A stretch of 26,284 bases of DNA, from IMG/VR virus record IMGVR_UViG_3300030106_007444, positions 1 to 26,284 of that record; one strand, written 5' to 3'. The position numbers were made by a program, and so were the translations under genes. Numbering within the stretch: position 1 is the stretch's first letter; each line of letters begins with the position of its first letter. Source of the stretch: a virus. The notes under the pieces are model-generated. The model ran no database searches and was not told where the DNA came from. It saw nothing but the letters and a program-made list of their open reading frames with translations. Below, piece after piece: positions 1,912 to 24,055 of this stretch.

Positions 1912-2048
1912 TGAAGCAAAAGGAGGTTGTTTTTCGGTTTCTCCTCTCCGAATATCAGCAGACACAAAGAAACCGATTTTATAATTCCGGAGTGCTACTC
2001 ACAACGGCCGTTGTCCCATCCGGAAACCTAGTTCTAGTTACTAGGTAA
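1911..2048 (+). CDS. Possible 45-residue ORF at the convergent junction
   Basis: An ATG overlaps the preceding stop as TGATG (1909-1913) and opens a 45-codon frame ending at TAA 2046-2048. The start layout would suit translational coupling. Against it, the second half lies antisense to the end of the large leftward gene, the sequence matches no family I recognise, and no separate ribosome site is present. It may be chance read-through of the junction. Confidence 0.2.
   Translation: MKQKEVVFRFLLSEYQQTQRNRFYNSGVLLTTAVVPSGNLVLVTR
1934..1976 (+). terminator. Possible terminator hairpin after the rightward operon
   Basis: A perfect 9-base inverted repeat, TCGGTTTCT at 1934-1942 and AGAAACCGA at 1968-1976, encloses a 25-base loop and is followed on the + strand by TTTT at 1977-1980. 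It lies in the short gap before the convergent stop codon, where a terminator for the thyX operon is expected. The loop is longer than usual and the stem only moderately GC-rich, so the call is weak. On the - strand no U-tract follows it. Confidence 0.35.
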
Positions 2049-5000: not shown

Positions 5001-5338
5001 CCGAACTCTACATCTGTTATCCTGTAGAAATTCTGACCGGATAAAGTTATAAAATCGCCTTGAGAGCCGCTAACATAAGCATCTTCTAAACCGCTAACAG
5101 TTATCTGACTTGCTGAATCAAGTACGACCTGTGCAGATCCCAAATTTAAAGTGTCCGAATAAGATGTATCAATAAATATATCACTTGTTATAGCATTAGG
5201 CGGGACTACTCCAGATATCCCAGTGGTGCCAACATAAGCCAACTCCTCTACTTCGTCAGCACCAAAGCGAACTTTCTCAGTGAAGTTCATGTTTGAACCA
5301 CTTAAAATAAATCTTTTCTTTGGCCTAAAAGTTGGCAT
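1979..5338 (-). CDS. Giant multi-domain IPT/TIG-like (immunoglobulin-fold) virion protein
   Basis: This 1119-residue protein is built of roughly ten tandem modules of about 90 residues, each opening with a pattern like hTGh...hxxGDxhTIxGxNh..hTGVxhG. Clear openings are near residues 79, 168, 258 and 366, at the GVPGDLITIFGENLFGITGV module, and onward to about residue 1060. This is the IPT/TIG immunoglobulin-like fold used in extracellular adhesins and phage decorations. A partial module begins at residue 8, and the last 57 residues are different and may form a terminal domain. No signal peptide or membrane segment is seen, which fits a virion component rather than a secreted one. Its ATG overlaps the upstream paralogue's stop by one base (TAATG), so it is the last gene of a leftward operon. 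The likely role is a side or tip fibre contacting the cell surface; this is inference. Confidence 0.75.
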   Translation of the reverse strand: MPTFRPKKRFILSGSNMNFTEKVRFGADEVEELAYVGTTGISGVVPPNAITSDIFIDTSYSDTLNLGSAQVVLDSASQITVSGLEDAYVSGSQGDFITLSGQNFYRITDVEFGGIKSNYFDVLSEEEITVQVPQNANYGEVSVVSSLRTGLNGSTSEASGKSYNEFVPIPEVTGLSSGQLVSGEILTIEGVSLSGVIGAAINSITLTGYLGDSSLDGPNSTGLQFFVPVGNVKGSPVLSLKSGLSYSAPSDISFSPLAKVTGVETNVEVGDFIDISGENFHNDILYDRISHPVPDSTYKYLVSIGDVTGNAKLVSDRVLRAKVPEDIVINVSGNLGGAYSVSTQEVEIFSKNYPQKYYPVESFTPKIGTPQITGMVPHSGVPGDLITIFGENLFGITGVDIGNIGFGTEAPIPASTLPGETIQFQLPDSASYPSSQSTQVISLSGIFGNATTNFTVLGGPTINSIYPSGHPDSPFSPGATGSIYGSNLYSGATLSLHDGNIAPANFRGDIAVSGYTLANNQITFTYPTVLETGNDYKIRVKNRRSSTLSSELTGFMFSPFISGFDPSDVQFGDAVTVSGYFEEIVTSGLKLGEYFIDDYTQNAVNREADPYKNLTGFVFTVPDNVVSDVISIETSGGFASTTGILKVSQPKPSISGFYLGEGDRPSSFNQDQVFKRGDSISVTGKRMNLVTGFEFTGDNGGRFSVNDISFKNPSRAIFNVPTNIHTGSGVFQSVDFKGRKSDTPFGINVSNISGFSNYLGRGETFTLSGQNVADLSIGFAYPTGGYIFTQKTTNLSPSAPDLGVESITVEVPTGITVGDIIITGEDNTNAGISVSGFNPLSMISGLTGAGTAANIGTGHTVLITGTNYYNAGFESGDYAIGISGTGNYESRNEVYLYPVNTITTGRGAIEDLNIFYNKFSFQLDSGFVGTGKFFIVNPWDDTEEASRPTSAGTETQEYLPNQVSFFPTEYKIEGTQVNGTGFGPVRGVTGSDVEITGFGFNAVTGVFFEIPSGETLRADFTINSATKITATVPKEGIESRGMTNILLSGGTNDSLSNFEVILDASVVEFNIVDADDTPASSTRVGNFTQRETVNGVVYLVTRTRFPDGTTAVVSSTPEL

Positions 5339-8050: not shown

Positions 8051-8608
8051 ATGGCTAACAGTATCTACAATGTACCACTTCATAATGCGAGTAACAGCTA
8101 TTCGAAGAACGATATAGTTTTTACTAGGCATAATATTGGGGACTCAGGAATTCCTCGTGAACTAAAATACTACTACGCCCTGACGGACGTGCCGACTAGC
8201 ACGCCAATTACTTCTTCCACTCATTGGGGCGGTTACATTGACGTTAAAGGACAAAACAAACCATACTTTTTATGGACTCCAGCATACAACCTTAATGTCA
8301 ACCATCAACCCAGAACCAATACGGTTGCTTTTGGCAATGGCTATGAACAAAGAACTCCTGATGGAATATTTAACAGCTTGATAAAATTAGACGTTTCTTT
8401 TGATATGAGAAATCAAGCCGAAGCTAGAGCTATTATACATTTTTTAAAAACTAGAAGAGGAGTTGAGAGCTTTATCGTAAAGCACCTTCCTCCAATCTAC
8501 GCAGACTCAACTTACAACAAGAGATTCTATTGCTCTAATTTTAATTCTAACTTTACCTTTCATGACAATTATACTATGAAAGCGACCTTCGTAGAAACTA
8601 ACACTTAA
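8051..8608 (+). CDS. M: Minor tail protein M-like with N-terminal carbohydrate-binding-like module
   Basis: The C-terminal half (about residues 80-185) matches lambda gpM: FGNGYEQRTPDGI at 94-106, then a strand-rich stretch and a hydrophobic helix ending in FLKTRRGVESFIV (131-143). gpM takes part in building the tail tip below the tape measure. Lambda gpM is about 109 residues; this protein is 185 because of an N-terminal extension with a Y-x-K-x-D-x-V-F start (17-24), a KYYYALTDVP strand (39-48) and a closing aromatic at W59. That pattern resembles small carbohydrate-binding modules of the CBM5/12 kind and recurs inside the next gene. It is the first gene of the M-L-K-I-J operon, preceded by an AAGG ribosome site at 8041-8044 and a GTGTAAT element. 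Confidence 0.88.
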   Translation: MANSIYNVPLHNASNSYSKNDIVFTRHNIGDSGIPRELKYYYALTDVPTSTPITSSTHWGGYIDVKGQNKPYFLWTPAYNLNVNHQPRTNTVAFGNGYEQRTPDGIFNSLIKLDVSFDMRNQAEARAIIHFLKTRRGVESFIVKHLPPIYADSTYNKRFYCSNFNSNFTFHDNYTMKATFVETNT

Positions 8609-8609
8609 G

Positions 8610-9830
8610 ATGCCAAAGATACCCTACAACGATGAAACCCGGGCTAAATCTTCTATTAAGTCCTTAAATTTTGAGCTATCTAATTTATCGCCATCTCATT
8701 TAGTAACTTTATTTGAAATTGATTTAAATGAATTATTAAACCAAAAAGGGATGAACCTGCAGTCCCAAGCTTCAACAATAGGTATTGGCACAACTGGATC
8801 AAGCGCCATAAATGCGAACGACGGAATACTTCGTTTTCACAACGATACCAAAGTTCTCAACTCGTTTATTATTTGGAGAGGAAAAACTTACTATCCAGCG
8901 CCAATATCAGCGGAGGGGTTTGAGTCCAATAGTAAAGGGGCGCTACCTCAACCAACTTTAACTATAGCGAGTCAATCAGAAACCGGCGTGGATCAACTAG
9001 CTTTACTAAAACATCAAATAAGAGAATTTGGAGATATTATAGGGAGCAAGGTAACACGTAGAAGAACTTTTGCTAAATATTTAGATAGATCAAATTTTGC
9101 TTATGGCGGAGTAAATCTCTCGGAAAAAGCTCAACAGCTCCCCCAAGGGTATGAACCAGATCCTTACGCTCAGCTACCTGAAGATGTTTACCTTATAGAA
9201 AGGAAGCAAACAGAAAATAAAAGCGTAATAACATATCAGCTGTCTTCTGTTTTAGACACAGAAGGAACCAAGCTTCCTAAACGAGTTATTGTTTCTGATA
9301 AATGTGTTTGGCAGTACAGAGGTATAGGATGCTGGTATCAGCACGCAGAAGAGGAGACGGAAAAAGCCGCCAATGGAAGTAACCTGAACTATAACGATCC
9401 AAATTTTCCACCAATTTTAAAAAAAGCCGAATTATCTAAATTAGGTGATTCGACCGGCTACGGACTCCCCAAGGAAGCCCCCCCTGTAGCAAACGATAAA
9501 GATGAAAAAATTAGAACTCTTCTAAACATTGATGGATCCATACTCGACTTAGGGCCTTGGAAAAGTGAACAAGAATATAAAAAAGGAAATGCCGTATACA
9601 TACTTAAAGACAAAATTAAATATTATTTTGTGGCTAAATCTACAAACACAGGTCAAATCCCACCCAATTCTGACTTCTGGATAGCAGACGAATGCTCAAA
9701 ATCCCTAACTGGGTGCAGGTTAAGATGGGGAAAATTAAAAGGTAATGCGGACACGAAAGGGTGCTCTATAAAAAAGGGAGAGCTCCCCTTTGGAGGTTTT
9801 CCTGCCGCTCGTAAAATACAAAACACTTAA
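8610..9830 (+). CDS. L: Minor tail protein L-like, Fe-S cluster cysteines conserved, with inserted module
   Basis: This is a homologue of lambda gpL, the tail tip protein that carries a [4Fe-4S] cluster. The first 230 residues follow the family, with LRFHNDTKVLNSFIIWRGKTYYP and a central RRTFAKYLD. The cysteine pairs keep the lambda spacing: C232 and C241 (nine apart, CVWQYRGIGC) and C362 and C369 (seven apart, CSKSLTGC), followed by the family ending LPFGGFPA at 392-399. The two pairs are about 120 residues apart rather than roughly 23, because a segment (about 245-360) is inserted. Its C-terminal part, W317-Y323-G326 to P351-W357, looks like the carbohydrate-binding-like module of the preceding gene. 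It starts two bases after the gpM stop. Confidence 0.9.
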   Translation: MPKIPYNDETRAKSSIKSLNFELSNLSPSHLVTLFEIDLNELLNQKGMNLQSQASTIGIGTTGSSAINANDGILRFHNDTKVLNSFIIWRGKTYYPAPISAEGFESNSKGALPQPTLTIASQSETGVDQLALLKHQIREFGDIIGSKVTRRRTFAKYLDRSNFAYGGVNLSEKAQQLPQGYEPDPYAQLPEDVYLIERKQTENKSVITYQLSSVLDTEGTKLPKRVIVSDKCVWQYRGIGCWYQHAEEETEKAANGSNLNYNDPNFPPILKKAELSKLGDSTGYGLPKEAPPVANDKDEKIRTLLNIDGSILDLGPWKSEQEYKKGNAVYILKDKIKYYFVAKSTNTGQIPPNSDFWIADECSKSLTGCRLRWGKLKGNADTKGCSIKKGELPFGGFPAARKIQNT

Positions 9831-9836
9831 GTAAGG

Positions 9837-10577
9837 ATGATTTTAAACGAACACATAAAATCCTCGATAAAACAACACGCTCTCAAAGAAAGCCCCAGAG
9901 AGTGCTGTGGATTACTACTTAAATCCAATCAAGGTATTGAGGTACAATCTTGCAGCAATACGTCAGAAAAGCCAGACAAACATTTTTCTATTTCGGCGAA
10001 AGATTATTTAAGGGCCTCTATGAGGGGTAGTATTAAAGGGGTGTATCATTCTCATATCTCTAACAATGATAAATTCTCTCCTAATGATATTTTACACAGC
10101 AGAGCGCATAAAGTGCCTTTCGTTCTTTATTGCCAAGGTAAAGACTCTTTTTCAACCTTCGACCCGGAAAGAAGCAAAACTTTTTTATACGATCGAATTT
10201 TCAAGATAGGCGAAAGTGATTGTTATACTTTTGTAAAAGAATACTATTCAGATTTAGGAATAAAGCTCAATGGCTACAATAATTTAGGTAATGACTGGCA
10301 CAAGAAAAATCCTAACTTAATTCAAGACTTATTTGATTTAAATTATAACGACCCCGACTTACCAATATTCGAACTTGACGCTAAATCAGAAATTAAAAAA
10401 CATGATGTTTTAGTTTTCGAGTTCATAAAAGGAGCAGGGGCAAATCACGTAGCGGTGTATTTAGGTGATGGCGAAATAATGCATCACCCTAGAAACAAAT
10501 ACCTTTGCATAGAACCTTTAGGCCGGGTTTTAAAAAATAAAATGATAAAGATATATCGACATGAGCAATTTAGTTAA
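9837..10577 (+). CDS. K: Tail tip protein K-like: JAMM peptidase plus NlpC/P60 hydrolase
   Basis: A two-domain hydrolase like lambda gpK (246 residues). Residues 1-110 form a JAMM/MPN domain with the full metal motif: E22, then H71-S-H73, seven residues, S81 and D84. Residues about 120-246 form an NlpC/P60 domain with C129 in GESDCYTF, H204 in ANHVAVYLGDGE and a further polar H216/H217. All expected catalytic residues are present, so both activities may be intact. The NlpC/P60 half is expected to cut peptidoglycan peptides during DNA entry; the JAMM half may process a tail protein. A GTAAGG ribosome site precedes the ATG, and the 3' end overlaps gpI by 17 bases. Confidence 0.93.
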   Translation: MILNEHIKSSIKQHALKESPRECCGLLLKSNQGIEVQSCSNTSEKPDKHFSISAKDYLRASMRGSIKGVYHSHISNNDKFSPNDILHSRAHKVPFVLYCQGKDSFSTFDPERSKTFLYDRIFKIGESDCYTFVKEYYSDLGIKLNGYNNLGNDWHKKNPNLIQDLFDLNYNDPDLPIFELDAKSEIKKHDVLVFEFIKGAGANHVAVYLGDGEIMHHPRNKYLCIEPLGRVLKNKMIKIYRHEQFS

Positions 10578-11331
10578 TGTTAAAATACATGGAGTTCTAG
10601 CTGATCAGCTCGGAAGATCTGAATGGAGGTTAGCTGTCAATAGCGTTGGAGAAGCTGTTCGAGCCATAGAATGCAATAGTCAAAAATTGTATAAACAGCT
10701 CATGGAGAACGACAAAAAGAGTATAAAGTATCGGATTCTCATTAACGAAAAAAATTTTTTAATGGAGGAAGGTAAAGACCCTGAATTACTAGACGATATA
10801 TTTGAATCAGAGCTAGTTTTACGGAAAAGTAACTTAAAAAGTATAGATATAGTCCCAGTTATAGAAGGCTCTGATGATATTATGTCTATTGTAACCATAG
10901 TTATAGGGGTAGCTTTAATTGCCGCAGGAGGCTGGGGAGTTTTTATGACTAAAGCTGCTTTCGGCGCGATGAGCTCAGGCATGAAGGCCGCATTTGTACT
11001 GGGAGGTATTGGCCTTGTAGCCGCTGGCGTTACAAACCTACTAACACCAATGCCTAAATTTGGCGACTTCAGAGAAATAGAAGGCGGTGGATCGCGATCT
11101 TATATATTTAACGGACCAGAAAATACTATAAGAGAAGGCGGTCCTGTTTTTGTTGGCTACGGCAGGTTATTAATAGGAAGCCACGTTATTCAATCTGCTC
11201 TGGATACTGTTGACACAGACGCTGAAGTAGCACCTAAAGATACTTGGGGAGAAACTAAATACGGATTGCTTTACAATATACCTAATGCAGGCGGATTACT
11301 CGAAACAAGAACACAAGATTGGGATAACTAA
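10561..11331 (+). CDS. I: Tail assembly protein I-like
   Basis: The 256-residue protein has the gpI layout: a ubiquitin-like N-terminal domain (VKIHGVLADQLG onward, about residues 5-100), two hydrophobic Gly/Ala-rich segments at about 107-129 and 143-162, and the family C-terminus YIFNGPENTIREGGPVFVGYGRLLIGS at 181-207. gpI acts with gpK, gpL and gpJ in forming the tail tip; the hydrophobic pair is typical of the family. The start overlaps gpK by 17 bases, and its stop shares one base with the gpJ start (TAATG at 11329-11333). The order K-I-J is that of lambda. Confidence 0.92.
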   Translation: MSNLVNVKIHGVLADQLGRSEWRLAVNSVGEAVRAIECNSQKLYKQLMENDKKSIKYRILINEKNFLMEEGKDPELLDDIFESELVLRKSNLKSIDIVPVIEGSDDIMSIVTIVIGVALIAAGGWGVFMTKAAFGAMSSGMKAAFVLGGIGLVAAGVTNLLTPMPKFGDFREIEGGGSRSYIFNGPENTIREGGPVFVGYGRLLIGSHVIQSALDTVDTDAEVAPKDTWGETKYGLLYNIPNAGGLLETRTQDWDN

Positions 11332-14300
11332 TGGGAAAAAAGAAAAAACAAAAACAAGCACGGCCAGTAGTTACAGATGTATCAGCTGTTAAAAACTCAG
11401 CAGGAGAATACGTTGTATCTCGATCTTTTTCCGAAGTTGTTGATTTGCTTAGCGAAGGAGTTGTAGAGGGACTCGTTTCTGGAGATTATACATACGTAGG
11501 AAAAGAAGGACAGACAGGATATGAGTCGGTAGAATTTTCTCCGTGGTCGGCAACAGGAACCAATGGACAGTCAAACACAGAACTAGGCTTCCTTCAATCT
11601 ATTTATTGGAACCAAATACCAATTGTTGACAAGGATGGTTTCTACAATTTTCCGTCAATTAACGTGCAAACAACTAAGGGCGAGCCTCAAGGAACTATAC
11701 CCGAACTTAATAGTGATATGGCTGTTTACGGGTCGATTGGGCAAAGCTCCAGCGATGTCCTCGATTTATCTGTTAATAGACCAATCGGCGAAAGACTTTA
11801 TGGCCCCGAAATTAAATCAGGAGAAGACTCACCCACTGATACGATATCCGCTCAATTAAAACCCGGGGTAAAAATAGATAAATACGCTAAAACTTATACT
11901 ATATTAAATAAAGAGCTTAAAAAAATATCTGTTAATGTAAAAGTTTCGGCGCTCTTTGAAAATATTCAAGCGGGACCTAAAACATATAAAAAATCTAGCT
12001 ATCTAGCTAAATGTAATAGGGCTTCTACAGGGTTCGGCGACACTAAAGCGAGGACCATTGAATATAATATATATTATAGGCCTATTTTTGATAGCAGATT
12101 TAAACCCGCGGACCAAAGTTCTCGAATCGTAGCTGACCAAACTCTGACTTGGGAGCTAGCTAAGAAAGAGACAGTGACCGGTAAAGTAGACCAACCTTAT
12201 ATAAGGTCAACGGAAATAGATCTAACTAAGGACTCAACTATAGACTTTTCAGACAATGAAGGTTTTGAGGGGTGGGAAATCAGGATAGTTAGGCTAACTC
12301 CCGAACCTCTAACTTCTTTTTATAAAGCGGTCACCTTTGTAGAGGGAATCGTAGAAATATATGGCACAAAATTAAGGTATCCTTATTCAGCAATGACGTA
12401 CTCGCAGTTCGACGCTAGAAGCTTTACAAGAGTACCCTCTCGAGCATATGACGCTAAATTAATTAAAGTTAAAATTCCAAATAATTACAACCCAATTTTA
12501 AAAACTTATGGAAACAGTAACGGCACCGCTAATTTGAGTTTTGATAACCCTATAGGTATTGGGGCAGGAGACAGAACAAATTCAACTTACAATTCAACTA
12601 ATAAAACATGGTCTAAATCGAACCCTCTGACATCCGTAGAATGGGATGGAGGCTTTGCAACTGTAGAAGGCTCTGCAACAGCCGCACCTTTAAAAGTCTG
12701 GACTGATAACCCAGCTTGGTGCTTTTATGATATAATGACAAACCCTCGTTATGGACTCGGAGAGTTCATTGACGAGACTCAAATAGACAAATGGTCTCTT
12801 TATGAAATTGCAAAATATTGCGATGAACTTGTCCCCGACACATATGGAAGCTTGGAGCCGAGATTTGCAATAAATTATTTAATAACTTCAAGGGAAGAAG
12901 CTTTTAAAGTTTTAAATGATCTTACTTCTATTTTCAGGGGTATAGCCTACTACTCAAACGGAAGTATTTTTGCAACTCAAGATAAGTATAAACTGGCATC
13001 ATATCAATTTAACAACTCAAATGTTGTTGAAGGAGACTTCACCTATTCAAGTTCTTCAAAAAGAGCACGGCATAGCGTCGCTATCGTAAGATATAACGAT
13101 AAAAGAAATCTATTTCAACCAGCGATTGAATACGTAGAAGACGAAGAGTCCGTCCGAAGATATGGAATTAACGAAATTGAAACAACTGCCTTGGGATGTA
13201 CTAGCAGAGGGCAAGCGAGAAGATTTGCTCAATGGATATTAAAGTCTGAAGCGTTGGAGACTGAAACCGTTTCTTTTTCTGTTGGAGGAGACGGTTCTTA
13301 TTTAAGGCCCGGGGACGTAGTTCAAATTTATGATAACTTCAGGAGCCCTTTAAAATATAGCGGCCGAACTAATACCGTCATTAAAGGTTCTGCGGCTGAC
13401 GTAACTAGCACTAATGGAGTAGCAAGCCAACAAGGAAACAAGTACAGTAATACTTCTAATTTTAATACTGTGGTCTTGGATCAACCTTTAAATTTCACAA
13501 GTAATAAAAGCTATAAATTTTCAATCCTAACTCCAACATATAATACAACTGCCGGTGAAGAAGATGAAATAAGAAGGTCTCAAATTCAAACAGCCATGTT
13601 CAGCGGGGCAGACGCAATGCCAATCACTGGTAATTTTAGATCTAATGAAACCGGGGTATGCACTCAAATTACATTCAATACAGGCTCTCTTTTCGGAGGC
13701 ACTGGGAACGCATTTGACTTTGATAATTACGTAATCACGGGATACACTAATACGGGAGTATGGGTAAGGGGTAGTACGGAAAACATGGTAACTACAGAAC
13801 AAAGTTACTCCGGGGGATGCTTCTCCGGTGAAAATCTAATCTGGAGTATAGAGCCTAGTGATAAAAACGACACAGAGTTTATCAGTGGGCATTATTCTAA
13901 TTATAAAATTATAAATATAAAAGAAGAGGAAGACGTGTATGCTATTTCAGCTTTGGCTTATTCTGTAGAAAAATATGACGAGATAGAATCCGACGTAGCA
14001 TCTACTATATCAACAAGTCAAGTCCCAGCGTTTCCTACTGGAAATAGCGCTTCTTCAAGCTCTGAATTAACTACAAATACAAGAGAGTTAGGCGCTTTAT
14101 TAAATATCACCCCGGGTACAGCATACCTAGAAGGAAGCACTACTGATTACCATAGCATCGAAATTGAATTTTCTATAGCCGCTCCAGCGGTCTCTTACAT
14201 AAGAGAGTCGTCGCAGCTCCAAGGCAGCCCAACCAAAAAGACTTATTTTGTCGACTTTGAGAAACAGGATGAATTAAATTTAGATTATAAAGTCGCGTTA

Positions 14301-16676
14301 TTTACAGAGCGTACCGATATCCCAAATCACACTAATGATGCGCCAGCTAATTTAAGCACCCAAACAATTAAAATTATTAACCCTGAGCTCTATAAAGACT
14401 ATATACCTTTTATTGCAGATAGCATAAATAATGAGGCAGAAATTTTTGAGAAAGAGAACCCTAAACGAAAGTCCGTTGAGGGAACGGTAGACGGAAAGCG
14501 AAAATCTACCGCATCAATGATTACAGAGTTCCTGACTGTCCCAGATGTAACTACTTATTATGTAGCAGTTTTCGCTCTTTCTGAAGACGGGGGGTGTTCT
14601 TATGGAATGCTTAGAAAGTGTAGTACGGCCGTAGCTTCTAAGACTCAGAGCACAACCTTAAACACAAGTATAACTAAATTAACGTCCGAAGGAAACCTAG
14701 GAATTTCAAATGCTTCAGATGTACTCAACAATTTAGACGCTGTAGAACCGGGATTTTCATGGGAAGTTTCAGACAAGGGAACGTTAAATAGTTTAGATGA
14801 CGTTAATGATCGAAACAATTTTGAAATATCTATTCCTAATCGAAATCGTCAATACCGAATAACTTTAAGGAAGAGGTCAGAAAACAACACCCCAAGTTCA
14901 ACTATATATTTAGAGCTAACGGGATACCAATCCCCATCCGAAAACCCAAACTTTGTATTAACTAAATTTTATAATGATCCAAATAACTTAAAATCTCTCA
15001 TTACAGGGAACGGGTATGGATGGAGAAACAACCAAGTGATAAGCAACTGGACAAGCCTTAATAGCAATCAGAAACTTTCGGAAGGCGCAGATTGGTTTTC
15101 TGCGTCAGGAGTCCAAACAGCAACTGAAACTTTAGGGCCTAACTATGGATTTAACATAAATTCAGGAGAAATGAACGAGTTCCCCTTAAGAGTGTTCGAT
15201 ATAGTAGTAGAAGCACAAGACTCAGAGGGACTCACGAGCGCAGGAAACGAAGCTTATGCAAATACTTTATATGGAAGCCCCGGGGAAAGCCAAAAGACAG
15301 AGACTTCTTTCCAGTCCTTTGGGGCTGACGGTCATGGGCCAAGTGATTCATCTTATGATATTTTCGGCGCTAAAATAGAGTCTCCAAGCGGAGTGTTTTT
15401 CGCGCAAAAACCCGCTACTCGAATAGGCTTAAGTTACGATTTTATTACTCCCACTGAAGCTGGAGAAAAGGGCTATCCATATGTTGCCTCAGCTGCAGTT
15501 TTCCCTAATGGATATTTACAAATCAATCTACAAGCCGCGCTTAAAGCGGACGGGACTCCAACAATAACAGAAGACGAATCTGAAATATTTTTCAATAATA
15601 CCGCTGGAATAATATATTACTACACTACCGGAGACAATAGAATTGACTATAAAAATGGGGAAGCTTTAGCTTTGAATCAAGCTCCTACTTTTAAAATAAA
15701 TCCATCTGAGGCGAATTTAGATCACGAAGATAATAAAGAGGGAGGGATGATAGACCCTATAACTAAATATGTCGCAGGACAAAATGTAGACGAGTTTCCT
15801 GCAAAAGCTTTCGGCGGGCTTATAACTTTAGGAAATTACGCCGGAAACTTTGCCGATGGACTAGCGGGAAATGTTCATAGAGGTTATTATTTATTTGGAG
15901 AAGATGATTCTGTAGATTCATTCGAAATCCCTTTCCCCAACATTGCTCAATCTCTTGTAGAAAACATTAACTTAGTTTTTGGTTATATTGATGACTTACA
16001 CATATTATCAGCTTTTGAAGAAGATGGCGAAACCCCATTATTTAACGGAACGGATCAAGGCAAAACGCCTAAAATATATACCCAAAAACATATAAATTAT
16101 TCAAATTCCGTGCTTGAAGAAGATGGCAGTTTTACATCTTTAACCAAAGAAGGAGGAGTATATTCTAATCGTTTCGTAGATAAACCCGGAAATAGTTTGT
16201 TCTTAAATGAATCTAGCATAACAAGCGCTGGAGATAGCGCCTTAGCTTTTAGAGCTTGGGGAGAAGTTAAGATTAGCAACTTTAAAAACCTTAGAGATTC
16301 TGTAAAAAAACAAGGTAAAGCAAAAGAATTTTTCAGGACAAATAATGGAGTGGAGAAAGTTGTTACTAAAAACATCCCCAACCTTTTGATGTTTTTGCCG
16401 AATCATAATAATGAGCATGCCTACTTTGAACTTAAAATAGAAGACTTCTTGAAAAGCATAGGCAGCGACGAATCAAAAGTATCCGTTATGATAAGCGCTC
16501 ACACATACGATAAAAATATAACTTCGCTTACGGCAAGCCCGGTCCAGAAGAATTTATCATTCAAATACGTCATAGAAGAAGGAAGTTTAATAATGAAAAG
16601 TGAAAATATTCACCACGTAAAGTATGCAGGAAACGAAATCTCTATTACGTTTGGAATACTAGTCACGAATGAATAA
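11331..16676 (+). CDS. J: Tail tip attachment (host specificity) protein J-like
   Basis: At 1781 residues this is much longer than lambda gpJ (about 1130). After a short basic start, residues 30-55 give the family opening SFSEVVDLLSEGVVEGLVSG. The best-conserved block is at about residues 459-515: NPAW, NPRYGLGEF, IDKWSLYEIAKYCDELVP and EPRF, followed by the FRGIAYY segment. In lambda the N-terminal half forms the hub of the tail tip, and the C-terminal part is the central fibre that binds the receptor. Here the region from about residue 950 onward is not recognisable by eye and probably includes fibronectin-like and fibre domains, with a RAWGEVKI segment near 1640. The start shares one base with the gpI stop, so it is coupled. 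Confidence 0.93.
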   Translation: MGKKKKQKQARPVVTDVSAVKNSAGEYVVSRSFSEVVDLLSEGVVEGLVSGDYTYVGKEGQTGYESVEFSPWSATGTNGQSNTELGFLQSIYWNQIPIVDKDGFYNFPSINVQTTKGEPQGTIPELNSDMAVYGSIGQSSSDVLDLSVNRPIGERLYGPEIKSGEDSPTDTISAQLKPGVKIDKYAKTYTILNKELKKISVNVKVSALFENIQAGPKTYKKSSYLAKCNRASTGFGDTKARTIEYNIYYRPIFDSRFKPADQSSRIVADQTLTWELAKKETVTGKVDQPYIRSTEIDLTKDSTIDFSDNEGFEGWEIRIVRLTPEPLTSFYKAVTFVEGIVEIYGTKLRYPYSAMTYSQFDARSFTRVPSRAYDAKLIKVKIPNNYNPILKTYGNSNGTANLSFDNPIGIGAGDRTNSTYNSTNKTWSKSNPLTSVEWDGGFATVEGSATAAPLKVWTDNPAWCFYDIMTNPRYGLGEFIDETQIDKWSLYEIAKYCDELVPDTYGSLEPRFAINYLITSREEAFKVLNDLTSIFRGIAYYSNGSIFATQDKYKLASYQFNNSNVVEGDFTYSSSSKRARHSVAIVRYNDKRNLFQPAIEYVEDEESVRRYGINEIETTALGCTSRGQARRFAQWILKSEALETETVSFSVGGDGSYLRPGDVVQIYDNFRSPLKYSGRTNTVIKGSAADVTSTNGVASQQGNKYSNTSNFNTVVLDQPLNFTSNKSYKFSILTPTYNTTAGEEDEIRRSQIQTAMFSGADAMPITGNFRSNETGVCTQITFNTGSLFGGTGNAFDFDNYVITGYTNTGVWVRGSTENMVTTEQSYSGGCFSGENLIWSIEPSDKNDTEFISGHYSNYKIINIKEEEDVYAISALAYSVEKYDEIESDVASTISTSQVPAFPTGNSASSSSELTTNTRELGALLNITPGTAYLEGSTTDYHSIEIEFSIAAPAVSYIRESSQLQGSPTKKTYFVDFEKQDELNLDYKVALFTERTDIPNHTNDAPANLSTQTIKIINPELYKDYIPFIADSINNEAEIFEKENPKRKSVEGTVDGKRKSTASMITEFLTVPDVTTYYVAVFALSEDGGCSYGMLRKCSTAVASKTQSTTLNTSITKLTSEGNLGISNASDVLNNLDAVEPGFSWEVSDKGTLNSLDDVNDRNNFEISIPNRNRQYRITLRKRSENNTPSSTIYLELTGYQSPSENPNFVLTKFYNDPNNLKSLITGNGYGWRNNQVISNWTSLNSNQKLSEGADWFSASGVQTATETLGPNYGFNINSGEMNEFPLRVFDIVVEAQDSEGLTSAGNEAYANTLYGSPGESQKTETSFQSFGADGHGPSDSSYDIFGAKIESPSGVFFAQKPATRIGLSYDFITPTEAGEKGYPYVASAAVFPNGYLQINLQAALKADGTPTITEDESEIFFNNTAGIIYYYTTGDNRIDYKNGEALALNQAPTFKINPSEANLDHEDNKEGGMIDPITKYVAGQNVDEFPAKAFGGLITLGNYAGNFADGLAGNVHRGYYLFGEDDSVDSFEIPFPNIAQSLVENINLVFGYIDDLHILSAFEEDGETPLFNGTDQGKTPKIYTQKHINYSNSVLEEDGSFTSLTKEGGVYSNRFVDKPGNSLFLNESSITSAGDSALAFRAWGEVKISNFKNLRDSVKKQGKAKEFFRTNNGVEKVVTKNIPNLLMFLPNHNNEHAYFELKIEDFLKSIGSDESKVSVMISAHTYDKNITSLTASPVQKNLSFKYVIEEGSLIMKSENIHHVKYAGNEISITFGILVTNE

Positions 16677-16685
16677 AATATAAAT

Positions 16686-17555
16686 ATGAAGCCAGAAACA
16701 TTTGAAGCTTCCATAGAGAAAGGCTCGAATAAATTATACTTAAGGTCTGCTTTTGAGGTAGTTATTAGAAACGGAGCTTTCATTAAGCTAGGTAGCAATG
16801 ATGTATTTTATAAAACAGAAAGCGCCGAGAAGATAAATATAAAAAGAAAGTTCTCTGCAGATGGAACACAGTTGAAAATCAAAGGGAACTTTGACTACAA
16901 ATTGTTTATGGGCGATTCTGCCCAAATTTCTTTTGAGGAATTTGAAGCGGTCAACTTAGAAAAAATAATCGCTCAAGTTGGATCTTACAAAGTTGGCGAA
17001 AAACTTTACGGGCAAGGCGGGATTACTTCAAGCTCCAATGGGAATATTACAGGAGAGTACGCTGAAGCAGAAGTTAAAAAAGTTGATGAAAATGGAAAAA
17101 TACTAGAGCTCTCTCTTACTTCTCCGGGCCTTTACATTTGCCAACCGGAAAGTCCCGTTGAATTCATGAACGAAGAAGGGAATACTGTTAAAGTTGAAAC
17201 AGAATTTGACTATTCCTCTCAATCGTCCTTGATCGAAAGAGATTTTTCTTTTGTTGAAAGCGATGGAAAAGAAACGATTATCACCTTGACTCACTCACTA
17301 CCAAAAGGAGTCCAAAACGGAGAATTTATTGTTAGCAAACAAGTAATATCTTTAAATAAGAATTACGATGACGAATCTTTTGAAAACGAATTGTGTCAAA
17401 TAACTTTCGACTATTCACCAGTTAACGGTATACCTCTTTTGCCGCCTAATAGTATAGACCCCCAAACAACTTACAATGAAGCAGTTATAATCATTGAAAA
17501 TAAACTGCAAGAACTAGATAAGAGACTCACTAGGATGGAACAAATGAATTTTTAA
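16686..17555 (+). CDS. Hypothetical tail-operon protein with C-terminal coiled coil
   Basis: This 289-residue protein follows gpJ by nine bases and closes the rightward tail operon. No family is recognised. It begins with strand-rich, charged sequence, has a Gly/Ser-rich turn region around residues 110-120, and ends in a short amphipathic helix, about residues 262-289 (NEAVIIIENKLQELDKRLTR), that looks like an oligomerising coiled coil. Such a layout suits a small trimeric fibre, fibre adaptor or decoration attached near gpJ, which is inference from position only. No Shine-Dalgarno site is obvious before the ATG. Its stop lies in a TTAA shared with the stop of the convergent tape measure gene. 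Confidence 0.7.
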   Translation: MKPETFEASIEKGSNKLYLRSAFEVVIRNGAFIKLGSNDVFYKTESAEKINIKRKFSADGTQLKIKGNFDYKLFMGDSAQISFEEFEAVNLEKIIAQVGSYKVGEKLYGQGGITSSSNGNITGEYAEAEVKKVDENGKILELSLTSPGLYICQPESPVEFMNEEGNTVKVETEFDYSSQSSLIERDFSFVESDGKETIITLTHSLPKGVQNGEFIVSKQVISLNKNYDDESFENELCQITFDYSPVNGIPLLPPNSIDPQTTYNEAVIIIENKLQELDKRLTRMEQMNF

Positions 17556-20500
17556 GATATCCCAGTAGTGCCTTTATTTAACAATCCTCCCGGACGCTGC
17601 TGCCTTACGATTTCTTGTAGAACAACCCCCTGTAAAACTTCTCCAAGCTCTTTATTATCATTGATTTCATCTTGTCGGTCTTTTTCTGATGGACCACCTT
17701 GCTGACTTGTTGCAGATCCTTCGGCGGTTGCTTTTCCTTCTTTATCTATATTTACATTTATGCTAACGTTGTTTGTAGTGCTGCCGCCAACCATACCGCC
17801 ACCACCGGCCGCTGGAGCAGCGCCAACTAAACCGCCAGAAGCGTAACCGGGGACATTACCGCGATTAAGCTCTGTCATGAAATTAATGCCATGAGTCCTA
17901 ACCGCTTCAGCACTCATCATGTACTCTCCGCCCGTGGTAGCTATTATGCCGCCGTTAGCTTTACCAACACCTATAGGCATTCCATGAGGTCCTAAAACGT
18001 CAGAAGGAAAGCCGCTATAATCCATCGTTCCTCCATGACGAGAAAGCGCACTCTGAGGCATGCCCGTAGCAGTCATTGGGTCAGCCAGATTTGTAAAGTC
18101 TGTAGCCTGATTAGCAGCGGCAAATTTATCCATCATGTGTGCGCCACCAATTAACATAGCGGCGTTTGCATAAGCTGAAATCAAGTTCCCGCGCTTTTTC
18201 CTTTCTACAGCTTTTACTGCGGCTCTTCTTCTATCGGTTTCTTGCGCCAAGTAACCTTGATAACTAGACATCGCCTCTTCCTTTTGGAACATCCTCGCAG
18301 TTTGCGGGTCGTCATCCCCAAGTCTCCCCAAAAGAGATAATCTATCACTTACTTCAAATCTTCCCTCTGTAGGCCGAGCTCTTTCGCTTATTAACTGGCC
18401 TGTTTGGGGATCTCTGCGATAATATACATAAGCTTTATTTAAAGAGACTCCAGCTCTACCCCCTCCTCCGCTTATCATATCTGGCCCTCGCGAGTCAGGG
18501 TCTGCGCCGCCTAAATAACCGTGCTTACTACGGCCGAAACCGTAATTTTGCGAAGGAGCTGGGCTAGGAGAGCCCGGTTGCATTGCTGCACCCAGAAGAC
18601 CAGAAGCTGCACTTGCTCCCGCCGCTATCAAACCAACTTTACCTAAAGATGGACCACCATTAGCCATTCCATTAATGGCATTTAAAGTAGGTACGCCTAT
18701 TTTATTTACAGCTGCTTTTTTAATTACAAATTCTCCGCCGGTTGCATTTATCGGTACATCATCTTTGTAACCAGACCCGCCAGTTATCAATCCGCCAGAA
18801 TTATAGCCGGGAACGTAACCACCTTGAGCCATCCCTCCCATCCCCATTCGCTGGAATAGCATACTAGAAAACATGTTAGTAGATACTTGGGAAATAGAAT
18901 CTAGAACATTTTGGGCCATCATTGCGATAGCCTCGCCAGCAGTAGCAGAACCGCTAGCTATAGCGCGAAATGCGTCCGCAAAAGATGACTTCATGGTTTG
19001 AGCCACTTGACGACTGCCATTTTCAAAATCTTCTAATACATCTACGGGGTTAGAGCCAAACTCATTTATAAAACCAGCTTGGAAAGCCCTACCCATATCT
19101 CCCTTTTGAACTCCTCTATTGGCAATGTCCGCAGCTAAGGAAGCGGAAAAAGCAGCGTTTCTGCCTCGAGTGCCCAATCTACCAGATTTCATCAAAGCTT
19201 CAGCCTCTGTGAGCTCTGCAGAAGCCAAAGAAGCTTTTATTGCTCTTTGCTCTGCTCTTTTTGCTGTATTTAGCTCATATTGTAGCTTTATACTTTCCTT
19301 AGTTACTCTAAACTGTTCCTCAGCTATCTCTTTGGCATTTGTTTCGCCTTCGGTAGCTGCGTCTATAGCTTTATTATATTTCTCTTGTGAACTCCTAAGG
19401 GTATCTATAATGTTTTGGAGCTGATCCAAGCCCACTTGATTAGCAGTGCCCTTCTCTCCAAACATAATCCCTTTTTCCAACTTCAGACCTTTTATCCCAG
19501 CTAACCTCTTAATTAAGTTATCTATTTGCTCTTGATCGTCCCCTTTTTTTACACTTTCTCTTAATTTTGTAAAAGCATCTAATGCCTTACCTGCTTCAGG
19601 TCCACCGAATCCTCCACCCTCAATGAACTTAACTGCGTTCATTCCTTTCAAGCCTTCCATAATACTAACCTCCAAAGCTTTATCAGCTATACCTTCAGCA
19701 TTCTCTCTTTCCAATTCGGCGGCGCTACGAGCTTCTTTCCTCACTACAGAGGCAACCCCAAGAGAATTTTGCCTTGCGCCAGCTTGAGCTATTCTTAAGC
19801 CTGAGCCTAACCCAAACATAGCCCTGCTTTGCGCGGCATCTCTAGTCAGTGTAGCTAGAGCCCTTTGAGCCTCGTGTACAGATTGCCTATAAACTTCTTG
19901 AGCCTGCATCGCTTTCAGAAGCGTTTCATTATAAGACTTTTGTTCGTCTATCTCTGTTTGCTTTTCTTTGTTTACTTCGGCTTGGAGCTTATTATATGCT
20001 TCACGGTCATTGTAACCCCTAGTTACAGCCCTATCAAAATTCATTAAAGATATATTTTGTTGTTCTTGAGTTAATCCAGCTTTCTCAAGAGCGTCAGCGA
20101 ATTTCTTCCGAGCTATATCAAAGTCTTCTTCTGATTCTCCTACGGCAAGACCAACTCCGGCCCTAGTTGCCTCTACAGTTCTCCCCGGGACTACCCTTGA
20201 AAAATTTTTACCTTGTTTAATTAAGCTTTTCCTCCTAGCTTCTGGCCCAATAGCGGTGCCCTTTACCGAGGATAAAAATCTAGAGGCGGCTTCTTGACCT
20301 TGCTTAACTAATTGCATATTAGCTTCTGCATCAAACATGGCCAATAGCTCCGGATTATCGGGAAAGTGCTTTTGTATAGATTCTCTTTGTTTTTGTAGAT
20401 CTTTTGCGTTCGCCACCCCTCTTACCATTGGCTCAGCCCCCATAGAACTTAAATACTTTTCTTCGTCAAAAGAATAGGCATCGTCAATACGAGCCCTCTT

Positions 20501-23500
20501 CGCAGGTGGCAGAGCCTTTACTATTTCGCTCATTCGCGTTTTAAAACGCCCGTCTTTCACTACAAAACTCCTTGAACCAACCCCCTCCGCTACAGTCCCA
20601 GAACGAGTTTCAAAGGCACTCCTTTCAGCAGCCCGCTTAGTAAAAGCTTCTTGAGCAGCCGCAAAATCTTTTCTACCCGCTTTCTCTAAATCGAAAGCCT
20701 CCTTAGTTGCTATCATAGAGGGATTGGCTTTCATCAAGTCTTCTACTATACCGCCCTTTTTAGCTACAAATTCCGCAGCGCTTAGTCGTTCTGCGAGTTG
20801 GGCAAAACTACCTGCGGCTTCAGCAGCTTTGTCAGATGCTTCTTTCTGTGCCTCAGCTTGAGCTTTAATAGCCTCTGTAGCATCATCGCTTGAAGACGTA
20901 AGCATTGTTATACCTTCACTGAGAGCCCCAATGCCAAGGCCCCCAATGATCCCGGGGACACCGCCTATCGCACCCATAGCACCGGACGCTAAGATTCTTG
21001 TTATAGGGTTGTCGGAACCAAACATACTTGCCCCCATGGCAAAGCCTCCTATTTTGCCTGCGCCCGAAGCTGCGCTCTTTCCATAGCCTAAAAGTCTACC
21101 ACCAAGACTTACTGCCGCGCCCGCAGCAAAGTTTGGAACTCCATGAGTCTTAGGATCTACTCCCGCGGCTTTAGAACGATTAATTCCTTGGTTTAGTCCC
21201 GCTGGTTCATGTATAGTATTGTAAACTCCCACTCCGCCGGGATTACCAGCAGAACGTAAAGCGGGGCTAGAACCCACTCTGATTGCGGAAGCAGGTACTC
21301 CTGCCGACATCTCTCTACCTATAGCAGAGGTCAAAGGAGAAAAATTAGGAACAAATCCCATTGCTTTACCTGTGGGAACAGTATGTTTTATAAATCTTCT
21401 TCCGGGGCCATTAGTTAGCAGCTCTTTGGCGAGCTTATTAGTCATACTAGACCGATTGCCATGAGAACCAGATACCTTAAAGTCAGCTATTGAAAAATTG
21501 CCTCCAAAAACTCTCCTAGCTTCTTTTGCAAAAGGAGGCCTGACATCAAAATCGCCAAATCTAGTTTCTTTAGCTGCTTGCTTCCTATTTAAGGCTAAAT
21601 TTACTCCAACCTCAAATGCCGCACCAGCCGCTGCTGTTAAAGCCCCTTTAGAACCTCTGGTAGAATCTAAGGCACGAACAACTTCACTTGTATCAGGAGA
21701 ACCTGCAGGAGGTCTAATACTAGCAGCGAAATTTTTAGTCACTTTAGCCGCCGCTTTTTCCATGTCCTTTCTTATTTCTCTAGGTCTATTTGGAAATTTT
21801 TCAGCCAAGAAATCATCACTGTAAGAAAGTATGGGAAAAGAAGATGAAAAAGCACTATACGTTCCAGTTCCCTTAGCCGGAGCACTCATTCCCTGACTGG
21901 CCTGACCCTCTGGTAACAACATAGCTATCTGCCCACCGGGGACTGAAAGCATTCCTCCTCTTTTCTGTATAGCTGCTAAAGTACCTCCCTTAAGCTTACT
22001 TGATCCTTTCCCCATGCCCAATTGTTTGTCCGGGATCGCATTACCTCTCGCATCCCTAAGTCCCATGCCTCTTGTTGATTTTCTATACGCTGCGCTAAAA
22101 AAGTTAGGAACAAAACCTCCCGCCGCGTAAGGATTAAATCCATGCGCAGCGCCAAAAGCCGCTTTGTAACCTGCTCCAGCCGCGCTATTTGCTGGCGGCA
22201 TTATAGCTTTTTGAGTCATCCCCGGAAATTGCTTTACTGTTTCCGCAGAATTATACATCATAGTACCAGCACCCGGCTGGCTCATAGTTCTTATAGCCCC
22301 TGCTCGGTAGCCTCCCGCCGCTGCCGCCGCTCTCTCCGTCCCGGCATTAGCAAAGTTAGGGACATAGCCTTCCGCCTTACCCGGCCTACCACGACCAAAA
22401 GCCCCAAATCCACTTGGAGTTACTCGCGCTCCGGCAGAATACATTCCCGACGCAAGCTGCCTAGCTAAAACAGTTTGCTGGGCTCTTTCTGCAGTCTGAA
22501 GCTTCATTGTATTCAGGATATCTTTTTGTACGGAAGCTATAGTTCTCTCTCCAGTAGCTATTTGTGATATTAAAGCAGGTTCAGATTGGAGCTTTTTAAT
22601 CACCATGTCCTCCAATGCTGCTCTTTGCTTAACAGCGGCATTGAGACCCATGAAATCCTTCATCGCTGTGGTTGCAAATTTACCTAAATTTAAAGCTAAT
22701 TTTCCAAAAGCTGCAGTAATTAATATTAAACCGGGTCCACCAATGAACTTACCTAAGCCTTGCAACATGTCTTTGCCAAGACCTTCGCCAAACTTTTCTA
22801 ATTTACCCCCTTCGCCGAAAGCTTCTATAATTCCATTTACGGCTCCAAGAGCATTGTTAATAGCTGGCCCAAAAAGATCTCCACCTAAACCTGCTCCAGC
22901 TTTGGTTAAATTAGCTAAAGTTCTGTTTACTAAAGCGTCTAGAGTTTGGTTAAGTTTTTCATTTTTCTGATATGCTTCATCAGTAGCGCTACTAGCAGCT
23001 CGCAAAGCTCCTGCGTAAGCAGAATTTTGTTGAGCTAAATCACCTAACGCAGATTTTAAGATGTTTACCTGAAACACACCAGCTACGCTTTCAGCAGTAG
23101 AGGCCTGCTGAGATTTAGTCAGAGTATTGAAATTTTTAGCAAGGTTTTGAAGAACTTGAATACCAGAGAGCATTTCTCCATTCATGTCTCTAGTAGCGAC
23201 ACCTATATTTTCTAATTTTTGCTGAACGTCAGTCCTCTGAATACGAGTAAATATAGTTTTAAATGCGTTACCAATCACAGCACCGCCACGAGCAGTCCTT
23301 TGTTGCACTGCTGTAGTGATAGCCATCAACTCATTCATGCTTACCCCCGCGGATTGAGCGGAAGCACCAACACGAGCTATAGATTTTGCTAAGTCTTCCG
23401 AGCTGACAGCAAAAGCAGCATCAACTTTTGCCATTCTGTTAACTACTTGAGCGGAGGTTACTCCTTCTTTATTAAATGAGTTTACTGCTGCGGTTAATGA

Positions 23501-24055
23501 TTTTACAGCGTCAGCTGCATTCATTCCTGTCAGTCGGGTAAGAATAAGGGCGTCCTTCGTTCGGGTTAGAGTTTTTTCCATCCCTAAGCCTTGACGGGCT
23601 AATTCAGTAGCTGCCTCTGCAACGGTACCAAACCCCTGAGCGGTCTCCTTCGCTACTTTAAACATCCCTTTGCCAAATTGATCTAAAGTCTTGGCATTGG
23701 CGTTCATGACGACGTTAACGTCCATCATGGCCTTTTCGACTTGTATTGCTGAAGCGACCATAGCCCTAAGAGCTTTGTCCACTTGCATAATCAATCCAGC
23801 AGAAGCTCCGAACGCAATAACACGCGCATTTGAAGCCTCTAACGACTTGGTGAATTCATCTGCTCTTACAGTAGCTTTAGAAAGGCCAGTGCCTAGCGCA
23901 CGAACTTTATCTGTACTTCCCCCTCCCCCAATTCCACCGAAACCCTTGGTCATACTCCTTCCTAGGGCATCAATCTTTTTCTGAAGTGCAGCTACCTCAC
24001 GTTGAGCTTTCCTTGCGTTTAAGTCGAGATCTATCGTTATTTTATCCGCAGCCAT
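17552..24055 (-). CDS. Tail tape measure protein (TP901-type core) with inserted nuclease-like cassette
   Basis: This 2167-residue protein sets tail length and is ejected with the DNA. Residues about 80-345 carry the TP901 tape measure core (AIQVEKAMMDVNVVMN, ELARQGLGMEKTLTRTKDA, RTARGGAVIGNAFKTIFTRI). Residues 560-976 form an inserted cassette marked by four G-[YF]-VPNF tags; residues about 700-885 within it resemble a PD-(D/E)xK nuclease. Hydrophobic Gly/Ala-rich stretches at 440-460, 978-1053 and 1805-1825 could enter the membrane, and 1060-1610 is mostly charged helix. Near the C-terminus, GGEFVIKKAAVNKIGVPTLN (1773-1792) is repeated in diverged form at 2042-2064, a motif common in these proteins. 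If all residues were stretched at about 1.5 angstrom each, the tail would be near 300 nm long. The gene runs opposite to M-L-K-I-J and has its own GTGTAAT element. Confidence 0.95.
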   Translation of the reverse strand: MAADKITIDLDLNARKAQREVAALQKKIDALGRSMTKGFGGIGGGGSTDKVRALGTGLSKATVRADEFTKSLEASNARVIAFGASAGLIMQVDKALRAMVASAIQVEKAMMDVNVVMNANAKTLDQFGKGMFKVAKETAQGFGTVAEAATELARQGLGMEKTLTRTKDALILTRLTGMNAADAVKSLTAAVNSFNKEGVTSAQVVNRMAKVDAAFAVSSEDLAKSIARVGASAQSAGVSMNELMAITTAVQQRTARGGAVIGNAFKTIFTRIQRTDVQQKLENIGVATRDMNGEMLSGIQVLQNLAKNFNTLTKSQQASTAESVAGVFQVNILKSALGDLAQQNSAYAGALRAASSATDEAYQKNEKLNQTLDALVNRTLANLTKAGAGLGGDLFGPAINNALGAVNGIIEAFGEGGKLEKFGEGLGKDMLQGLGKFIGGPGLILITAAFGKLALNLGKFATTAMKDFMGLNAAVKQRAALEDMVIKKLQSEPALISQIATGERTIASVQKDILNTMKLQTAERAQQTVLARQLASGMYSAGARVTPSGFGAFGRGRPGKAEGYVPNFANAGTERAAAAAGGYRAGAIRTMSQPGAGTMMYNSAETVKQFPGMTQKAIMPPANSAAGAGYKAAFGAAHGFNPYAAGGFVPNFFSAAYRKSTRGMGLRDARGNAIPDKQLGMGKGSSKLKGGTLAAIQKRGGMLSVPGGQIAMLLPEGQASQGMSAPAKGTGTYSAFSSSFPILSYSDDFLAEKFPNRPREIRKDMEKAAAKVTKNFAASIRPPAGSPDTSEVVRALDSTRGSKGALTAAAGAAFEVGVNLALNRKQAAKETRFGDFDVRPPFAKEARRVFGGNFSIADFKVSGSHGNRSSMTNKLAKELLTNGPGRRFIKHTVPTGKAMGFVPNFSPLTSAIGREMSAGVPASAIRVGSSPALRSAGNPGGVGVYNTIHEPAGLNQGINRSKAAGVDPKTHGVPNFAAGAAVSLGGRLLGYGKSAASGAGKIGGFAMGASMFGSDNPITRILASGAMGAIGGVPGIIGGLGIGALSEGITMLTSSSDDATEAIKAQAEAQKEASDKAAEAAGSFAQLAERLSAAEFVAKKGGIVEDLMKANPSMIATKEAFDLEKAGRKDFAAAQEAFTKRAAERSAFETRSGTVAEGVGSRSFVVKDGRFKTRMSEIVKALPPAKRARIDDAYSFDEEKYLSSMGAEPMVRGVANAKDLQKQRESIQKHFPDNPELLAMFDAEANMQLVKQGQEAASRFLSSVKGTAIGPEARRKSLIKQGKNFSRVVPGRTVEATRAGVGLAVGESEEDFDIARKKFADALEKAGLTQEQQNISLMNFDRAVTRGYNDREAYNKLQAEVNKEKQTEIDEQKSYNETLLKAMQAQEVYRQSVHEAQRALATLTRDAAQSRAMFGLGSGLRIAQAGARQNSLGVASVVRKEARSAAELERENAEGIADKALEVSIMEGLKGMNAVKFIEGGGFGGPEAGKALDAFTKLRESVKKGDDQEQIDNLIKRLAGIKGLKLEKGIMFGEKGTANQVGLDQLQNIIDTLRSSQEKYNKAIDAATEGETNAKEIAEEQFRVTKESIKLQYELNTAKRAEQRAIKASLASAELTEAEALMKSGRLGTRGRNAAFSASLAADIANRGVQKGDMGRAFQAGFINEFGSNPVDVLEDFENGSRQVAQTMKSSFADAFRAIASGSATAGEAIAMMAQNVLDSISQVSTNMFSSMLFQRMGMGGMAQGGYVPGYNSGGLITGGSGYKDDVPINATGGEFVIKKAAVNKIGVPTLNAINGMANGGPSLGKVGLIAAGASAASGLLGAAMQPGSPSPAPSQNYGFGRSKHGYLGGADPDSRGPDMISGGGGRAGVSLNKAYVYYRRDPQTGQLISERARPTEGRFEVSDRLSLLGRLGDDDPQTARMFQKEEAMSSYQGYLAQETDRRRAAVKAVERKKRGNLISAYANAAMLIGGAHMMDKFAAANQATDFTNLADPMTATGMPQSALSRHGGTMDYSGFPSDVLGPHGMPIGVGKANGGIIATTGGEYMMSAEAVRTHGINFMTELNRGNVPGYASGGLVGAAPAAGGGGMVGGSTTNNVSINVNIDKEGKATAEGSATSQQGGPSEKDRQDEINDNKELGEVLQGVVLQEIVRQQRPGGLLNKGTTGIS
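21128..22369 (-). repeat. Four G-[YF]-VPNF tags punctuating the tape measure cassette
   Basis: The short peptide tag occurs at residues 563-568 (GYVPNF), 647-652 (GFVPNF), 900-905 (GFVPNF) and 972-976 (GVPNF, lacking the aromatic). The tags bracket three segments of about 78, 247 and 67 residues. Related VPGY tags followed by SGG occur near the C-terminus at 1746-1754 and 2067-2075. The DNA of the tags is diverged, so they are kept at protein level rather than by recent duplication. Confidence 0.8.
21401..21958 (-). other. PD-(D/E)xK nuclease-like domain inside the tape measure protein
   Basis: Residues about 700-885 of the tape measure protein show, in order, a helix ending GALTAAAGAAFEVGV (E815), a strand RFGDFDV (D837, with D835 nearby), and a strand FSIADFKVS giving D858-x-K860, then a Gly/Asn/Ser-rich turn and a basic helix. 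This is the order and spacing of the catalytic residues in restriction-endonuclease-fold enzymes. The family call rests on motif reading only; no structure or profile search was done. Confidence 0.55.

Follow-up and report, generated by a model that had tools for sequence, protein, structure and literature searches.

An exchangeable cassette with a PD-(D/E)xK-like active site inside the tape-measure protein of an uncultured siphovirus clade

The window analysed here is the whole of a 26,284-nucleotide stretch of viral DNA (IMG/VR record IMGVR_UViG_3300030106_007444, positions 1 to 26,284), which contains an open reading frame (ORF) for a protein of 2167 residues on the minus strand (Table 1). 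Matches to the Pfam family PhageMin_Tail (E 5.1e-28) and to PHROG tape-measure families (to E 1.2e-56) identify its product as a tape-measure protein, and its N-terminal region shares 27-31% identity with annotated tape-measure proteins of the SPbeta type, the Slash type and lactococcal WRP3. Membership is further borne out by a conserved region inside a tail gene module, with lambda-type tail-tip genes as neighbours. These neighbours (8051-16676) lie on the plus strand, opposite the tape-measure gene, which is unusual for such a gene order. Elsewhere in the window, the plus strand encodes a Thy1-type thymidylate synthase (E 2e-50) and then a 2OG-Fe(II) oxygenase (E 1.3e-24) at 411-1709, and the minus strand encodes, at 1979-5338, a 1119-residue protein with repeated immunoglobulin-like (IPT/TIG-looking) segments and without a PHROG match.

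Table 1. Features of the tape-measure gene and its cassette slot, in window coordinates.
Feature	Position	Strand	Basis
Tape-measure protein, 2167 aa, whole ORF	17552..24055	-	PhageMin_Tail and PHROG matches; identity to annotated tape-measure proteins
Conserved N-terminal tape-measure region, residues 55-400	22856..23893	-	50-99% identity, 16 relatives
VPNF motif 1, residues 565-568	22352..22363	-	
Linker 1, residues 569-648	22112..22351	-	65-96% identity across relatives, beside the divergent cassette
VPNF motif 2, residues 649-652	22100..22111	-	
Exchangeable nuclease-like cassette, residues 653-901	21353..22099	-	Divergent between conserved flanks; swap statistics
Core, residues 700-885, with E815, D837, D858xK860 and K874	21401..21958	-	Sole invariant columns among 50 cassettes lie here; model pLDDT 88
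VPNF motif 3, residues 902-905	21341..21352	-	
Linker 2, residues 906-972, GREMSAGVPASAIRVGSSPALRS...GVYNTIHEP	21140..21340	-	Residues 901-950: 74-94% identity
VPNF motif 4, residues 973-976	21128..21139	-	

Within the protein, a short framing motif of the form G-[FY]-[VI]-P-N-F marks out a slot with a regular layout, in which a linker of ~80 residues, a cassette of ~220-330 residues and a second linker of ~70 residues are separated from each other and from the rest of the protein by VPNF motifs. Across 75 tape-measure ORFs, [VI]PN[FY] occurs 334 times where shuffling predicts 2 occurrences, and 307 of these motifs carry a glycine at position -2. An earlier note, made from the sequence alone, had located a putative nuclease domain in the stretch that corresponds to residues 700-885; its placement in the ORF is correct and the core it delimits is real, but the full unit is larger and extends from one VPNF motif to the next.

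The slot combines near-constant borders with highly variable content. Among the relatives recovered with a 419-residue query, the flanking linkers are mostly 74-96% identical, whereas the enclosed domain ranges from 8 to 67% identity per 50-residue block. The contrast persists between otherwise very similar proteins: in pairs whose N-terminal regions are 90-96% identical, median identity is 88% for the linker and 29% for the cassette, and 16 of 30 such pairs have cassettes below 30% identity. In L078 and L079, for instance, the N-terminal regions are 98% and the second linkers 96% identical, as against 30% for the cassettes. As judged from these alignments, the contrast is one of exchange, or extreme diversification, of a single module. 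Residues 653-901 are best read as one allele of an enzyme cassette that is exchangeable and sits midway along the tape-measure protein of a siphovirus.

E815, D837, D858 and K860, which the earlier note had singled out as a catalytic pattern, are all found in the core, and the lysine is indeed followed by a Gly/Asn/Ser-rich turn (GSHGNRSS). The motif by itself was rejected as evidence, given that this protein contains it no more often than expected by chance: in its loose form, E-x(12-35)-D-x(10-35)-[DE]-x-K, it has 12 start points compared with 12.7 in shuffled sequences, and a stricter version, found once, is present in 14% of shuffles. What makes the nuclease-like motif significant is its conservation across relatives. 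An IMG/VR scan with the 244 amino acids of the domain alone returned no relatives; a scan with 419 residues, linkers included and with no motif filter applied, returned 12, all of which (12/12) retain E815, D837, D/E858 and K860. When these relatives and the window protein, 13 sequences in all, are aligned, G811, F814, E815, D837, K860 and K874 are among the positions of the domain that never vary. Scanning IMG/VR with the tape-measure N-terminus yielded 426 relatives, 80 of which were kept, and among 50 non-redundant cassettes with 13-53% identity to that of the window these same positions form the only invariant columns. All 57 cassettes checked have D or E at position 858, a count biased by the selection of the larger sets (50-57 cassettes) with a motif expression. 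The D837 column was fixed by a pattern check and realignment; a DFD sequence had shifted its MAFFT placement in one run. The predicted conservation of the motif in homologues thus holds even at 13-20% identity, and K874 is a fifth invariant residue that the earlier note had not listed.

A profile search, with a profile partly built from the same ORFs, detected the domain in 67 of the 75 tape-measure ORFs; the remaining eight are cut by contig ends (three), lack a cassette (two) or hold other content (three). A second copy in L111 (residues 637-721) is degenerate, with D in place of E. Close cassette pairs mostly have dN/dS values of 0.04-0.5, many of them low (e.g. 0.04-0.10), from which it follows that the domain is maintained. 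In one group (L056-L064), dN/dS reaches 0.77, compared with 0.04-0.2 in many other pairs, and these cassettes are possibly under diversifying selection.

A first structure model, built from an untrimmed alignment of 21 sequences, was weak (pLDDT 71.7) and gave no structural matches. AlphaFold modelling from 50 trimmed sequences reached a pLDDT of 88.0 and a pTM of 0.82, the five models lying at 85-88 (model numbering plus 686 gives protein residues). The predicted chain starts with four strands, followed by helices, of which that at 800-821 carries E815, and by D837 beside a one-residue bridge; it continues with a helix (843-850), a strand (856-859) with D858 and then K860, a helix (865-880) with K874 and a strand (890-892). 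In the model, E815 is therefore helical and D858xK860 lies in a strand, as had been proposed, but D837 is on no proper strand. Its strand(DxK)-helix-strand order agrees with that of PD-(D/E)xK enzymes, whereas no beta1-beta2 hairpin links the E helix to the DxK strand, as it would in that fold; the model instead has four strands ahead of the E helix.

Foldseek searches with the confident model returned no significant match in the PDB (best E 1.6) or BFVD (best E 0.66), and no convincing profile match for the cassette was found in Pfam, PHROGs, NCBIfam or PADLOC, nor any among PDB sequences. Two candidates were discarded along the way: a PADLOC Cas4 match (E 0.0044) stops ahead of the DxK motif, and plant lectin sequences in the PDB (E 2e-4) share only a short G-x-[IV]-FE repeat. 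In 50-57 cassettes, conserved E, D and (D/E)xK residues follow one another in the right order; no known family of the PD-(D/E)xK superfamily resembles the cassette by profile. As for the original claim of a PD-(D/E)xK domain, its active-site-like residues are conserved, but the alpha-beta-beta-beta-alpha-beta order is not seen in the model and no PD-(D/E)xK structure is matched by Foldseek. Because the hairpin is missing and structural and profile matches are lacking, the cassette is not filed as a member of the superfamily. The sequence comparisons nevertheless lend good support to an enzyme cassette whose active site is PD-(D/E)xK-like; the cassette may work like a PD-(D/E)xK enzyme, as the order and spacing of the site would fit, and its core may be a permuted or degenerate version of that fold.

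In the collections covered here, the cassette occurs in this tape-measure clade only. Every one of the 14 matches from a cassette-only scan has the VPNF frame, and the tape-measure N-terminus is visible in 12 of them and not in the available sequence of two ORFs. Neither cassette nor linker was found in a 50,697-record collection of isolated phages. Among bacterial genomes, the cassette is present only in a phage contig of one Flavobacteriales metagenome-assembled genome, with 295 genomes from that class covered; two marginal matches fail to cover the DxK motif. No description of the cassette and nothing relevant on 'VPNF' was found in the open-access papers searched.

The slot does not always hold this cassette. 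It is empty in four members of the same clade (L026, L027, L049 and L050), the first three of which also lack linker 1, meaning that these phages can assemble tails without the cassette. Other members carry unrelated sequence in its place: in L105 and L107 this bears a PD-(D/E)xK-like motif (ILDAIAIKGGKIIGPAEFKPS), and in L112 (11567-16636) a stretch resembling a canonical PD-(D/E)xK site (TTDVDAVDTVKRAFFEFKAG), both recognised by eye and without a profile match. L112 additionally has a PcfJ module (E 1.3e-6). In L105 (11516-13885) and L107, ILDAIAIKGGKIIGPAEFKPS is followed by a HAD-phosphatase-like stretch, IFDFDGTLG, likewise seen by eye and without a Pfam match.

In two giant relatives, L035 (494-22288) and L036 (455-21976), the tape-measure ORFs of ~7200 residues (at least 7174) have N-termini ~44% identical to that of the window protein and contain more than 20 VPNF motifs. 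Each has a CCA-adding enzyme (PolyA_pol, E 5e-19; tRNA_NucTran2_2, E 4e-7) in addition to two nuclease-like cassettes. A homologous cassette lies at about residue 3200 of L036 (BLAST E 4e-7) and another in L113 (5e-6). Between the VPNF motifs of L113, L034, L111 and L118, ADP-ribosyltransferase-like (LYRG...STS) and GNAT-like (GQGYGTELYEHM, GQGQEMFDR) stretches can be made out by eye.

Peptidoglycan hydrolase domains occur in tape-measure proteins, and SPbeta-type YomI records are annotated as transglycosylase; these too are embedded enzymes, but they act on the cell wall and have no exchangeable slot of this kind. In P23-45, a virion RNA polymerase is fused to the tape-measure protein, again an enzyme domain within a siphovirus tape-measure protein that is thought to be active as DNA enters; unlike the cassette, the polymerase is N-terminal rather than internal and swappable, and no VPNF frame has been described (PMC10770324). 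Tme, a tape-measure-related endonuclease, and Sle1, both effectors of Streptomyces contractile injection systems, also pair tape-measure relationship with a functional domain, which varies between species in Sle1-type proteins (PMC11126660, PMC13277306). Yet, the nuclease of Tme is EndA-like with DRGH and H-N-N motifs, C-terminal, and part of a bacterial injection system rather than a phage (PMC11126660). Polyvalent proteins, multi-enzyme polypeptides predicted to be co-injected with phage DNA, resemble the giant relatives, which combine CCA-adding, PcfJ and nuclease-like modules, although tape-measure proteins do not feature in the text describing them (PMC5512222). With a single recognised enzyme-like cassette, the window protein falls short of the two or more disparate enzymatic domains per polypeptide that define this class, whereas L035, L036 and L112 have them by architecture. 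Polymorphic toxin systems join an exchangeable toxin domain to a constant delivery part. The window protein has an exchangeable enzyme-like domain between constant parts, which may or may not act as a delivered toxin; a C-terminal toxin with an immunity gene is not seen, the cassette being internal (653-901 of 2167) and the flanking ORFs having no immunity-family match.

We consider it somewhat better than even, at a probability of roughly 0.55, that the cassette is a metal-dependent nuclease with a PD-(D/E)xK-like active site (E815, D837, D858, K860) on a strongly diverged scaffold, delivered from the tail; K874 would be a further active-site or DNA-contacting residue. The cassette sits between VPNF-marked linkers in a tape-measure protein that would be packed in the tail tube. 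On infection, as is general for siphoviruses, the protein would be ejected from the tail before the DNA and pass into the envelope. Lambda offers a parallel, its tape-measure protein associating with inner-membrane proteins during injection (PMC13190303), and the precedent of other tape-measure-fused enzymes makes delivery of the cassette into the host plausible. At or beyond the inner membrane, it would refold and cut nucleic acid, most likely the DNA of the host or of competing elements, or else process the incoming DNA. That divergent versions have replaced one another time and again, with the active site left intact, suggests an arms race in which inhibitors, targets or recognition are at stake.

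The exchange pattern would most naturally point to host or competitor DNA as the target, and processing of the entering genome is the serious rival to this reading. A nuclease that trims, nicks or resolves the phage's own DNA at the membrane pore, without attacking host DNA, would suit the link of tape-measure proteins to a membrane channel and the EndA-like DNA-entry nuclease domain of the tape-measure-related Tme (PMC11126660); we rate it unlikely, as the empty slots argue against an obligatory role in entry in all relatives and repeated swapping fits conflict better than housekeeping. It is a little less doubtful, but still improbable on balance, that the same invariant acidic and lysine residues belong to another kind of enzyme, with a new fold and acting on nucleotides, RNA or protein. 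The absence of any PDB or viral fold match for a confident model points that way, as do modules of the giant relatives that act on tRNA (the CCA-adding enzyme) or look ADP-ribosyl- or acetyltransferase-like by eye. Against this, alternative domains in the same slot also bear PD-(D/E)xK-like motifs, and the order and spacing E-x21-D-x20-[DE]-x-K-x13-K are typical of PD-(D/E)xK sites.

Two further explanations concern the protein architecture rather than the chemistry. That the VPNF motifs are protease sites, releasing cassettes from a polyprotein before or after assembly, would account for their bordering every module, including the many in the 7000-residue relatives; many of them, however, border constant-length linkers, which would be excised as well, and no protease was recognised among the ORFs of the window, leaving this a rather remote alternative. 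More remote still is a non-catalytic structural or DNA-holding tail module, in which the charged residues would be retained because folding or assembly needs them. Its location inside a structural protein and the coexistence of empty and full slots are compatible with such a role, but at 13-20% identity no residues other than catalytic-type ones stay invariant, the remainder diverging freely, and a structural function would not favour whole-cassette exchange between near-identical tape-measure proteins.

Tape-measure proteins are usually viewed as rulers and membrane channels. In its broadest form, which we put forward only tentatively, the proposal is that a large clade of uncultured siphoviruses has a tail-borne cargo system, in which exchanged enzyme cassettes in a VPNF-delimited tape-measure slot would reach the host ahead of the genome; the nuclease family would be new, with an undescribed or permuted fold, and giant relatives would add tRNA-, ADP-ribosyl- and acetyltransferase-like enzymes. 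If true, complete enzymes would be traded in and out of one conserved slot with their active site preserved, which would turn the tail into a vehicle for early-acting effectors and would explain the growth of tape-measure proteins past 7000 residues, and the linkers and VPNF motifs would suggest a natural grammar by which folded cargo can be built into tail proteins.
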